Origin: an uncultured Amylibacter sp.
GTDB lineage: Bacteria; Pseudomonadota; Alphaproteobacteria; Rhodobacterales; Rhodobacteraceae
Direction of reading: 5' to 3'
NCBI GenBank assembly: GCA_943846615.1
Contig: OX044354.1
Span: 1,257,001-1,321,000, forward strand
DNA: 64,000 bases
Made by a program: the position numbers and the translations under genes
Notes under the pieces: model-generated
Told to the model about the DNA's origin: nothing
The model's database searches: none
Seen by the model: the letters and a program-made list of their open reading frames with translations, nothing else
Shown here: positions 8,276 to 30,439 of the stretch, one piece after another
Layout of the letters: each line of letters starts with the position of its first letter
Numbering within the stretch: position 1 is the first letter of the stretch

Positions 8276-8379
8276 AGATATTGGCATATATAGGGGTGTC
8301 GGCCATGTCACAGGTGGCGGGAATGCTGTGGCGGTGGTCGGAATCACGCTTGCGTCACTGCGTATGAAAGTGCACAAAG

Positions 8380-8575
8380 GCAAGGCATGGTTCCCCGTAA
8401 GCATGTTTCAACATGTGGGGATCAAATGGGAATGCGGAGAGGGACGACCCAAAAGGGGCCCATAGCCGCGACCGCCCCCGCGACTGTATGCGGAGAGTGA
8501 CACCCGAATACCACTGGCGATACGCTGGGAAGGTGGGTGGAACGATCGATCCGTAAGTCAGGAAACCAGCCTTGC
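8380..8575 (+). ncRNA. cobalamin (adenosylcobalamin-type) riboswitch
   Basis: The leader of the cobalt uptake genes carries the aptamer marks: the P1 closing stem GCAAGGC (8380-8386) pairs exactly with GCCTTGC (8569-8575). In between lie a CCCCGCGACTGTATGCGG segment (the class hallmark is CCCCGCxACTGT), a GATACGCTGGGAAGGTGGG segment, and AAGTCAGGAAACCAGCC, the usual 3' B12-box end. A further hairpin (CCGTC-N6-GACGG, 8591-8606) lies just before the ribosome site GGTGAGGAG of cbtB, and could be the expression switch. High cobalamin is expected to turn the downstream operon off. Confidence 0.95.
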
Positions 8576-8620
8576 AGAACGTTAATCAGGCCGTCGGGGA
8601 TGACGGTGAGGAGAGATAAA

Positions 8621-27481: not shown

Positions 27482-28123
27482 ATGACACGTGGTATTATCC
27501 TTGGCGTTATCGCCATGGCGGCAATTGTTGTCGCCTCTAACATTCTGGTGCAGTTCTTTGTTGGCAATTGGCTGACGTGGGGGGCTTTCACCTATCCTTT
27601 CGCATTTTTGGTGACTGATTTGGTCAACCGTATGTACGGCGCCAATGGCGCACGTAAGGTGATCGCTGTTGGTTTCGTTGTGGGGATCATCTGTTCCCTG
27701 ATCGGCACCCAAGTAATGGTTCAAATCGCCCCTGATTTTTCCGCACCAGCGGTTACGTTGCGTATTGCTATTGGTTCTGCGACGGCCTTTTTCGTGGCGC
27801 AAATGGTTGATGTGTTTGTGTTTGATCGCTTGCGCGAAGGTTCCTGGTGGCGTGCGCCATTGGCGTCCACACTGATCGGTTCCACAATCGACACCGCCCT
27901 GTTTTTCACCATCGCCTTTTCGGCGGGTATGACAGGCCTGTTAGGAACAGATCATAACATCGATTTCTTCAACGAAGTTGTAGCCGCGCCATTTGGCGGA
28001 TCGGACACAGTGCGTTGGGTTGGTACCGCGTTAGTGGATTGGTCAGTGAAAATCGGTATCGCGTTGATCGCGTTGATCCCGTTCCGCATGTTGGTAACGA
28101 AGTGGCAGCGTTCAGCGGCATAA
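27482..28123 (+). CDS. yhhQ: queuosine precursor transporter (YhhQ/DUF165)
   Basis: A 213-residue inner-membrane protein with about six spans. The family marks are FTYPFAFLVTDLVNRMYGANGARKVI, with the conserved acidic-Tyr-Gly segment, and VFDRLREGSWWRAPLASTLIGSTIDTALFF. It imports preQ0/preQ1 for queuosine in tRNA. CGGAG ribosome site 7 nt from the ATG. It is preceded by tandem palindromes and followed by an intrinsic terminator, so it is monocistronic. Confidence 0.93.
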   Translation: MTRGIILGVIAMAAIVVASNILVQFFVGNWLTWGAFTYPFAFLVTDLVNRMYGANGARKVIAVGFVVGIICSLIGTQVMVQIAPDFSAPAVTLRIAIGSATAFFVAQMVDVFVFDRLREGSWWRAPLASTLIGSTIDTALFFTIAFSAGMTGLLGTDHNIDFFNEVVAAPFGGSDTVRWVGTALVDWSVKIGIALIALIPFRMLVTKWQRSAA

Positions 28124-28187: not shown

Positions 28188-28304
28188 CAAATGGCATTTC
28201 ACAAAAAATTTTCAAAAACTTCTTGGATATTTCACAAAGTCATTGCATGATTCGTATATCGGACGAAATGATCCGGTCATTGAAACAATCGAAAGGAGGT
28301 GCCT

Positions 28305-28361
28305 ATGATTATTGGGAAACAAGAGCAGCTGGTGAAGGATACGAGCGGGGTTCACGTTTAG
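28305..28361 (+). CDS. possible 18-residue peptide MIIGKQEQLVKDTSGVHV
   Basis: ATG 5 nt after AAAGGAGG, one of the strongest ribosome sites in the window, and 18 codons to a TAG whose last base lies in a G/C hairpin. The peptide has no signal sequence or known motif. It could be a leader peptide, a micro-protein or an accident inside a regulatory RNA. Confidence 0.3.
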   Translation: MIIGKQEQLVKDTSGVHV

Positions 28362-28433
28362 GGGGCAGCCCCCCATTTCGAAGACCCGGCTTCAAAGCAT
28401 ACGGCTTTGCTTGCCACCTCTAAATCTCGAGAG

Positions 28434-28462
28434 AAGCCCGCATTCCTTGGTGCGGGCTTTTT
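28434..28462 (+). terminator. intrinsic terminator of the short unit
   Basis: Perfect 9-bp stem AAGCCCGCA (28434-28442) / TGCGGGCTT (28451-28459), 8-nt loop, TTTTT tail. It isolates the short unit from the SPFH gene. Confidence 0.9.
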
Positions 28463-28552: not shown

Positions 28553-29962
28553 ATGTACGGCATGACAATTGCTGCCATTTTCGCATTGGCGATTTGGGGC
28601 GGAACCAGTTTGGTTCATGAGAAATTTAAGGATTATATGAAGATTGGTTATCTGTTAGCGGCGGGGTATTTTTTATTCAGCGCGTTCAACGGTATCTTCT
28701 TCTATGCGGAACCGGGGTACAAATACCACGTGCGCACGATTACAGGTCAGGAAAAAATGGTTTCGGACACGGGTTACAATTCATACCTGTTTGGCCGCGT
28801 GAATGCGTGGAAAAACGCGATGTCGGTTCAGGCATCATCGGGTGGCGTTGGCAAAGTTAGCGCCGAAATCGAGGGTTCGTCGACCAGCGCGAATCTGTCG
28901 CCGCAATCATTGGTATTTTTGGATCAGGTAGATGCATTGGTAACGGCTACAACCCGGTACGAATTGCCCGCTGACGAAGACGCGTTTTTGAAAATGGTGC
29001 GGTTGTACCGTACGCCTGAAAATCTGTTGCGCACGGAATTAATCCCCGCGTTTCAGGAAACATTGGGCGCGACGGCCGCATTGCTATCGGCCGAGGATTA
29101 TTTCCAAGGTGGGAAAACAGAATTCAACAATGAATTCCAACGTCAGATGGAAAACGGTATTTACATTGTGCGCCGTGTCGAAGAACGCGTGCGCCTTGAC
29201 GAAGGTCCTGCGCAAGGTTCAGCCAACGCATCGTTAGGCACGGATCAAAAAGAGTACGGTGATCAGTTCAAAACCGTATTCCGCGTTAAGAAGATTTTGG
29301 ACAACACGGGCCAACCACAACGCAAATCGCAATCCTTTACCAAGTTCGCAATCGCAGTAACCAGCGCACGTGTTACCGGTGTTGATCCAAACACAGAGTT
29401 CAAGCAACGCATGCGTCTGCGCCAACAAGCGGCAGCGGATCGATCCATTGCACGAGAGCAACGCATCCAAGAAGAAGAGCAACGCCTGTTGGCAATAGCC
29501 AAGGGTGAACGCGAAGTTGCAGAGCGCCAAGCGCAAGCCAAAGTAACACAGATCGAGCGTACGACAGATGCGGAAACTGAAAAGCAGTTAACCCTAACGG
29601 ATGCGAACAAGTTGAAAGAACAAGCGGCCATCGACCGCGAACGTTCAGAGATTTTATTGGAGAAAGCCGAAATTGATGCCAAAGCCGTGAAAGTGGCGGC
29701 AGACGCCGAAGCTTATGCTAAGGCCGCCGTTTTGGAAGCGGATAACGCATTAGCGCAGAAATTGGCAACCGAGTTGAAAATCCAAGAAGCATGGGCGCTG
29801 GCCTATTCGGAACGTAAGGTTCCGCAATATGTATTTGGTGGTAGTGACGGCGCAGGAGAGACACCTGTTGGTGGCGACCAAGAGGCGATTTTGTTGCAAA
29901 AATTGCTGACGATGGAATACGCCAAGCGGTTGGATTACGACCGCGAAATTGGCAATCAATAA
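28553..29962 (+). CDS. SPFH/Band 7 domain membrane protein
   Basis: A 469-residue protein with one or two N-terminal membrane segments (about 1-50), an SPFH/Band 7 domain (about 55-280) and a long Gln/Glu/Ala/Lys-rich coiled coil (about 290-420), as in flotillin- and prohibitin-like proteins that scaffold membrane patches or proteases. ATG 28553 has AAAGGAA 7 nt upstream; a TTG at 28538 would add five residues. No protease gene of the NfeD/HflC type sits next to it. A terminator follows the stop. Confidence 0.85.
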   Translation: MYGMTIAAIFALAIWGGTSLVHEKFKDYMKIGYLLAAGYFLFSAFNGIFFYAEPGYKYHVRTITGQEKMVSDTGYNSYLFGRVNAWKNAMSVQASSGGVGKVSAEIEGSSTSANLSPQSLVFLDQVDALVTATTRYELPADEDAFLKMVRLYRTPENLLRTELIPAFQETLGATAALLSAEDYFQGGKTEFNNEFQRQMENGIYIVRRVEERVRLDEGPAQGSANASLGTDQKEYGDQFKTVFRVKKILDNTGQPQRKSQSFTKFAIAVTSARVTGVDPNTEFKQRMRLRQQAAADRSIAREQRIQEEEQRLLAIAKGEREVAERQAQAKVTQIERTTDAETEKQLTLTDANKLKEQAAIDRERSEILLEKAEIDAKAVKVAADAEAYAKAAVLEADNALAQKLATELKIQEAWALAYSERKVPQYVFGGSDGAGETPVGGDQEAILLQKLLTMEYAKRLDYDREIGNQ

Positions 29963-30019: not shown

Positions 30020-30439
30020 ATGATCCACGTAACCGACAATATCCAAATTGAAGACTGGGAAGTGACCGAGAGCTTTATGCGATCATCCGGCCCCGGCGGT
30101 CAGCATGTGAACAAGGTGTCGACCGCAGTAGAGTTGCGGTTTGAGGCGGAACGATCCCCAAACCTGCCCCCACATGTAAAAGTGCGGCTGCGCAAATTGG
30201 CGGGTCGTAAATGGACAAAGGATGGCGCGATTATTATCACCGCCGAGAAGCATCGATCGCAACCGATGAACCGCCAATTGGCCCAAGAGAAGTTGGTTGA
30301 ATTGATTATCGAGGCCACAAAACGCCCGAAATATCGTGTAAAAACCAAACCAACCAAAGCATCGCAACGCCGCCGCATGGACAGCAAAACCAAACGCGGT
30401 CAGGTGAAATCTTTACGTGGGCGTGTAACGGGCGAATAG
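30020..30439 (+). CDS. arfB: ribosome rescue peptidyl-tRNA hydrolase ArfB (YaeJ)
   Basis: Codon-independent release factor that frees stalled ribosomes. At 139 residues it has the catalytic GGQ at 26-28 (SSGPGGQHVNKVSTAVELRF) and lacks the codon-reading domains of RF1/RF2. The basic C-terminal tail (KASQRRRMDSKTKRGQVKSLRGR) is the part that enters the mRNA channel. It is a backup to the SmpB/tmRNA system whose smpB lies 6 kb upstream. Confidence 0.93.
   Translation: MIHVTDNIQIEDWEVTESFMRSSGPGGQHVNKVSTAVELRFEAERSPNLPPHVKVRLRKLAGRKWTKDGAIIITAEKHRSQPMNRQLAQEKLVELIIEATKRPKYRVKTKPTKASQRRRMDSKTKRGQVKSLRGRVTGE

Follow-up and report, generated by a model that had tools for sequence, protein, structure and literature searches.

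The window, by which we mean the whole 64,000-nucleotide stretch of Amylibacter DNA that was analysed, contains a compact unit on its forward strand (28291-28462, +) made up of a ribosome site, an 18-codon reading frame, a hairpin at the stop codon, the heptamer CACCTCT and a terminator. The initial annotation had described one short RNA that combines a frame with a self-masked ribosome site, and comparison of relatives supports this description. The hairpins and terminator that it listed are present in the sequence, and the stop-codon hairpin and terminator recur in relatives. The unit and its surroundings comprise the following features:

27482-28123, + strand: gene for a VUT/YhhQ-type transporter (Pfam Vut_1), the upstream neighbour
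28223-28251, + strand: promoter-like pair; -35 TTGGAT (28223-28228), 17 nt, -10 CATGAT (28246-28251)
28260-28275, + strand: 5' leader hairpin CGGACGAAATGATCCG; by eye, the stem sequence varies and pairing seems kept
28291-28301, + strand: very strong Shine-Dalgarno (SD) sequence GAAAGGAGGTG, with 11 nt of complementarity to the 16S 3' end
28305-28361, + strand: 18-codon frame MIIGKQEQLVKDTSGVHV plus TAG (ATG at 28305, TAG at 28359-28361), conserved in length but not in peptide
28361-28374, + strand: stop-codon hairpin GGGGGCAGCCCCCC, starting at the stop codon
28394-28408, + strand: second hairpin AAAGCATACGGCTTT (AAAGC..GCTTT), with two-sided changes in columns 105-111/120-126 among 25 sequences
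28415-28421, + strand: cis copy of the anti-SD sequence, CACCTCT, able to pair with the ribosome site at GGAGGTG
28424-28433, + strand: pre-terminator ATCTCGAGAG, which could pair with codons 3-5 (TTGGGA)
28434-28462, + strand: intrinsic terminator; 7 of its 12 stem pairs have two-sided changes (25 sequences)
28553-29962, + strand: SPFH/Band_7 gene, the next one downstream in the window, 90 nt past the terminator
30020-30439, + strand: gene for an arfB-like RF-1 domain protein (ribosome rescue), ~1.6 kb from the unit in the window

Judged from the position of the promoter-like pair, the RNA probably begins near 28257 and not at 28196, where the annotated span (28196-28462) started; the end of that span at the terminator stands. 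Similar promoter-like sequences (TTTGG/TTGAC ... GCATGAT or GTGGCA..T) were read by eye in relatives, and the pair at 28223-28251 was not among the predictions of a sigma-70 scan. A 33-bp-spaced direct repeat had also been counted as part of the unit. The copies of ATTTCACAAA at 28196 and 28229 do lie 33 apart, the second inside the promoter spacer, but a 10-bp repeat within 60 nt arose in 398 of 5000 order-1 random sequences of the same composition, and no exact copy was present in the 140 nt upstream of the 70 other loci counted (L014, dropped for a run of N, has one copy). We rejected the repeat as a component of the unit, as it is at chance level and its own genome is the only one, over 71 loci, with the exact repeat. 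For the leader hairpin, 18 upstream sequences of the window's group were aligned; RNAalifold placed only 3 pairs in them (-0.2 kcal/mol), and the hairpin was thus not confirmed by the program.

Distribution of the unit and its reading frame

A DNA search recovered homologues in 26 of 61 genomes (its own included) and in 24 of 32 same-genus relatives; across the family, it did so in 10 of 295 genomes. A covariance model built from 25 sequences (R1) gave matches in 56 of 295 genomes (E <= 0.001), including a few that were weak and partial. For a sample independent of the RNA, the VUT protein was sought in 46 family genomes and was present in 44. In each of the 30 best-scoring VUT loci (the window's own included), the VUT match is followed after 58-172 nt by an extended SD with a short frame, and in 27 this frame is exactly 18 codons long; five of the 30 came from genomes already known to be RNA positive. 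Twelve of the other 14 VUT genomes carry the unit, one recognized by R1 and 11 among the 13 scanned with a second model, R2. Nine of these 11 R2 matches lie beside VUT and two on another contig, including a 41-bit match to a 26-codon form in G064, while the R2 scan gave no match in the VUT-bearing genomes G070 and G089. Of the genomes without VUT, G085 had no match and G073 a weak one of 26 bits. Altogether, 42 of the 46 VUT-sampled family genomes carry the unit, and it is conserved.

No credible copy was found in 8 of the 32 same-genus relatives (two have 25-bit matches), four of which are at least 95% complete. In these near-complete genomes (G010, G012, G015 and G026), the RNA is, as far as the sequences tell, lost or diverged beyond recognition; such absences within the genus indicate that it is dispensable.

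For the comparisons below, 71 loci were gathered from DNA and model matches and from the VUT sample. All 71 candidates were anchored with a script pattern for AAAGGAGGTG, together with a separate pattern for L115 from the VUT set. Left out were L014 (run of N), the duplicates L021 and L022, five loci from genomes already represented (L102, L103, L107, L117 and L122), and genome G261 (L029/L082), which has 18 codons and a divergent 3' part. Alignment A3 and model R2 rest on 59 of the 71 loci, and R2 is a Rhodobacteraceae-only model. A background pattern with N4 spacing matched in 17 of 295 genomes, some of these being true members. In 4 of the 71 loci, the unit is kept without a VUT match.

The annotated frame has exactly 18 codons in 65 of the 71 loci. 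Across all 71, GTG (36 loci), ATG (31) and TTG (4) interchange as starts. A stop triplet at offset 54 is found in 65 of 71, and the best other offset between 30 and 75 reaches 14. Stops in the main type are TAG (18), TGA (18) and TAA (5), and in the window's type TAG in 24 of 24. In 69 of the 71 loci, GGCAR is found between nt 48 and 75 of the frame. Among 21 further loci from the R2 scan, 15 have 18-codon frames (14 from genomes outside R2), L283 has 26 codons, L285 has 31, and four weak matches lack a frame. Five of six named Rhodobacterales loci have 18 codons, and L176 (Halocynthiibacter) has 23. The unit is also present in Roseovarius nubinhibens ISM (L189).

The peptide is another matter. 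Over the 65 loci with 18 codons, differences at the three codon positions were 0.27/0.28/0.34 for codons 2-12 and 0.60/0.62/0.44 for codons 13-18 in the main type, and 0.12/0.18/0.15 and 0.39/0.37/0.39, respectively, in the window's type. The neighbouring genes in the same loci clearly have a third-position excess (VUT, 0.26/0.13-0.15/0.53-0.60, with 0.26/0.15/0.53 in the main-type set; arfB, 0.26-0.28/0.17-0.19/0.55-0.63, with 0.26/0.19/0.55 in the main-type set), whereas the 18-codon frame has none. This flat variation indicates that the length of translation is conserved and the peptide product, on this comparative evidence, is not. The initial annotation had asked whether the peptide or only the RNA is conserved; the reading frame is, and the peptide sequence, which lacks codon-level selection, is not. 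A frame of fixed length with a drifting peptide is evidence for the act of translation itself being the function.

The ribosome site and its predicted self-masking

The heptamer GGAGGTG is identical in 71 of 71 loci, and 22 of them have an ATCC-extended SD. Contiguous complementarity to the 16S tail, which we take to be GGATCACCTCCTTTCT, spans 10-12 nt in 50 of the 71 loci (11 nt in the window) and 14-16 nt in the other 21. This tail is present in Rhodobacter, Cereibacter, Sulfitobacter and Paracoccus plasmid records; in the sequence of the unit's own genome (G000), neither the tail pattern nor the SSU rRNA family gave a match. This 2.75-Mb genome contains one instance of GAAAGGAGGTG with an ATG or GTG 3-5 nt downstream, namely the unit's, and such extended sites are rare in general, with 24 matches in 37 genomes.

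The CACCTC noted earlier as complementary to the ribosome site is present at 28415, and a masking element of this kind recurs. Scored as seven pairs, at least six of them Watson-Crick, an anti-SD copy is found in 61 of 71 loci, compared with 222 of 3550 shuffled 3' regions. In the single-sequence fold of the window's RNA, the ribosome site pairs with CACCTCT (minimum free energy [MFE], -71.8 kcal/mol; z, -2.51; stability reached by 3 of 200 shuffles; mean pair probability, 0.97), and single-sequence MFE folds pair the two elements in 57 of the 61 loci that carry the copy. Consensus folding gave divided results. RIBOSUM scoring of the 59-sequence alignment pairs GGAGGUG with CACCUCC, while default scoring of the same alignment and a 25-sequence fold give no SD/anti-SD pairing; in the latter, the 3' arm pairs with codons 3-11 instead. 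As the SD is invariant, two-sided covariation of the masking helix is impossible; most of the changes seen are C/U or A/G, and such changes automatically leave a G-U pair in place. For the predicted masking helix, the single-sequence folds are evidence in favour and the divided consensus folds evidence against. When the SD context was set against the anti-SD context, 4 of 300 permutations were as good, a figure uncorrected for relatedness.

Pairings of the 3' arm with the frame did no better than permuted genomes, and two were rejected: that of codons 1-7 with the pre-terminator, for which 89 of 300 permuted genomes were as good, and that of codons 7-13 with the segment that precedes the anti-SD copy (195 of 300). 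In the possible pair of the pre-terminator with codons 3-5, G-C is replaced by A-U in 4 of 25 sequences.

Kinship with the CC2171 family

An Rfam scan of the window gave only a cobalamin riboswitch above threshold (8371-8588, +; 111.9 bits). The Betaproteobacteria toxic sRNA and Thr leader families, which match mainly the terminator and stay below threshold, were rejected. CC2171 (RF01867), which Rfam types as an sRNA (Caulobacter), gave full-length matches below threshold (14.6 and 19.9 bits), the former in the window, where the gathering score of 75 bits is thus not reached. These matches led to a class-wide test. The RF01867 model matched in 25 of 142 genomes, in five of them over its cut-off and in the unit's own genome not at all; R2 likewise matched in 25 of 142. 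Outside the unit's own family, RF01867 matched in 24 genomes and R2 in 23, with 19 common to both, each at the same place. The link within the family is G265, which RF01867 matches with 33 bits (4.7e-5) at the place that R1 matches at 4.6e-12. R2 matched 20 of 20 RF01867 loci, with 20.8-47.9 bits; among 19 control loci of the form GAAAGGAGGTGCC-N-ATG from outside the Alphaproteobacteria, which lack the ATCC form, 10 had R2 matches of at most 17.6 bits. The E-values of this R2 comparison are rough. Significant homology to CC2171 was thus found through intermediates (G265 and the reciprocal model searches). Aligned to the Rfam model, L028 fits at the terminator and ends and has many nonstandard pairs in the middle region.

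By pattern, 26 of 27 wider-family loci share the extended SD GAAAGGAGGTGATCC, a start codon and a short frame with the unit; the 27th, L050, has a shorter SD. The ATCC-extended form of this SD is also that of 22 of the 71 Rhodobacteraceae loci. In our reading, the extended SD and start codon open these RNAs, and a terminator ends them, as in the unit. The differences are in the frame (22-35 codons in the wider family versus 18 in 65 of 71 loci here), in the cis anti-SD copy (0 of 26 wider RNAs versus 61 of 71), in the GCAR element of the stop region (10 of 27 as GRGCAR, and not in the core Caulobacter-like RNAs, versus 69 of 71) and in the VUT/arfB synteny found here; by tblastn, neither VUT nor arfB was found in flanks of up to 1.5 kb around 20 RF01867 loci. 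Since the anti-SD copy is absent from the wider family, masking is not that family's core function. The wider RNAs L042, L047, L048, L264, L283, L133 and L148 encode Glu-Gln-Pro (EQP), mostly at codons 20-22, and in several of them these codons come from a GAGCAR hairpin element; 8 of the 27 wider frames have 26 codons.

The 18-codon self-masked form looks like a Rhodobacteraceae branch of an extended CC2171 kind, to judge from these comparisons. Because the Rfam cut-off is not reached, we do not file the unit as a member of RF01867. The initial annotation had matched it to no known family; the Rfam sRNA CC2171 can be named as a distant relation. CC2171 is listed in an sRNA table of Mesorhizobium huakuii (PMC5596092, in the part available). 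In the accessible portions of the literature covered (including PMC5596092, PMC11701678, PMC10117765, PMC5082802, PMC8307010, PMC11354728 and PMC8625941), papers name CC2171/RF01867 without stating a function, and those on Rhodobacter sRNAs and small proteins, anti-SD sRNAs and Caulobacter ribosome profiling contain no description of a function for the unit's RNA.

Possible functions and known systems

In 45 of the 71 loci, arfB lies directly downstream of the RNA. It is not adjacent in the other 26, the window included (L012 ends too early), and 25 of these 26 still have 18 codons. The unit had been called isolated; in most relatives, it lies between VUT and arfB. Because arfB directly follows the RNA in those 45 loci, the SPFH/Band_7 gene that separates the two in the window may have been inserted in this lineage. 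An SPFH/Band_7 gene is also found downstream of the RNA in L002. Counted from the ribosome site, the arfB start (taken from the tblastn match) comes after 178-315 nt in 45 of the 55 loci with a downstream arfB, and in L105, L003 and L011 it is less than 20 nt past the T run of the terminator, distances that make control by read-through plausible there. In L105, L003, L011 and L106, arfB starts ~15-35 nt past the terminator and no clear SD was seen by eye, which suggests read-through or an unusual mode of arfB expression.

We give an even chance to the proposal that ~28257-28462 is the gene of a terminated small RNA that acts as a translation-gated regulatory switch, in which, we infer, the signal would be the act of translation and not the peptide. 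The 30S subunit and the built-in anti-SD would vie for one ribosome site. Should the 30S subunit win, the 18-codon run would end at the stop-codon hairpin and leave the 3' part, including CACCUCU/C, exposed; should it lose, the RNA would close on itself. The most likely output would be base pairing of the exposed 3' part with putative other RNAs, and a second possible one would be read-through into arfB where arfB follows.

The RNA could instead serve as the 5' leader of arfB, in which a stalled leader ribosome would allow GGCAGCCCTT to pair with the 5' arm of the terminator and so turn arfB on. Besides the 178-315-nt distance, this is what the lack of room for a promoter in L105, L003 and L011 would fit, as would the complementarity of GGCAGCCCTT to the terminator arm, which beats shuffles (0 of 300 as good), and the stop element's top rank among leader stretches in 33 of 68 loci. 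However, the arms of other genomes fit equally well (174 of 300 permutations) with no covariation, the RNA is unchanged in the 26 loci without adjacent arfB, and the 20 RF01867 loci lack VUT and arfB in the flanks searched. We regard a leader role as unlikely, and a specific arfB antiterminator was rejected because covariation support is absent over 68 loci (L083, L101 and L114, where the script found no terminator, are absent from these tests). The unchanged RNA in loci without arfB and the antiterminator's lack of covariation favour a stand-alone translation-gated RNA.

An improbable account of the ribosome site makes it a decoy that would tie up small subunits, with the frame clearing them and the anti-SD setting the affinity. 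The 10-16 nt of 16S complementarity, the equally extended site of the wider family and the rarity of such sites per genome agree with it, but a sponge needs no fixed-length frame with a kept stop, and with one strong match in its own genome, very high expression would be needed. That the unit is an ordinary small-protein gene with the 18-amino-acid peptide as its product seems very improbable to us: the strong ribosome site, the conserved frame and the near-constant residues E7 (64 of 65) and V10 (61 of 65) speak for it, and against it stand the missing third-position excess, clear in VUT and arfB, and peptides that vary from MIIGKQEQLVK to VSRxxLERGVGT to the 22- to 35-amino-acid forms of the wider family.

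Beyond the translation-gated switch in Rhodobacteraceae, it is conceivable, if doubtful, that an Alphaproteobacteria-wide class of RNA reports ribosome status, pairing with nearly the whole 16S tail so that free 30S subunits would load there first; the Rhodobacteraceae replica of the anti-SD would then make a free-ribosome sensor that drives arfB or other genes by the act of translation. Through this work, an orphan Rfam sRNA becomes a ribosome-facing RNA that is probably translated and whose logic can be tested; a form of it is present in 42 of the 46 Rhodobacteraceae genomes sampled.

For Sinorhizobium meliloti, the available part of PMC10117765 describes annotated sRNAs that carry translated short frames. 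There, rnTrpL-peTrpL resembles the unit as a small RNA with a very short frame; rnTrpL is a leaderless RNA with a peptide that is reportedly active (PMC10117765, same part), whereas the unit has an extreme SD and a drifting peptide. The Rhodobacter sRNA StsR, given in the accessible source text as 72 nt long and driven by RpoHI/RpoHII, was set apart by description only. Rhodobacter also has sRNAs with an anti-SD motif (CcsR/'cuckoo' RNAs), which carry a pyrimidine-rich, anti-SD-like stretch; compared by description only, the unit differs from them in that its stretch faces an SD in the same RNA.
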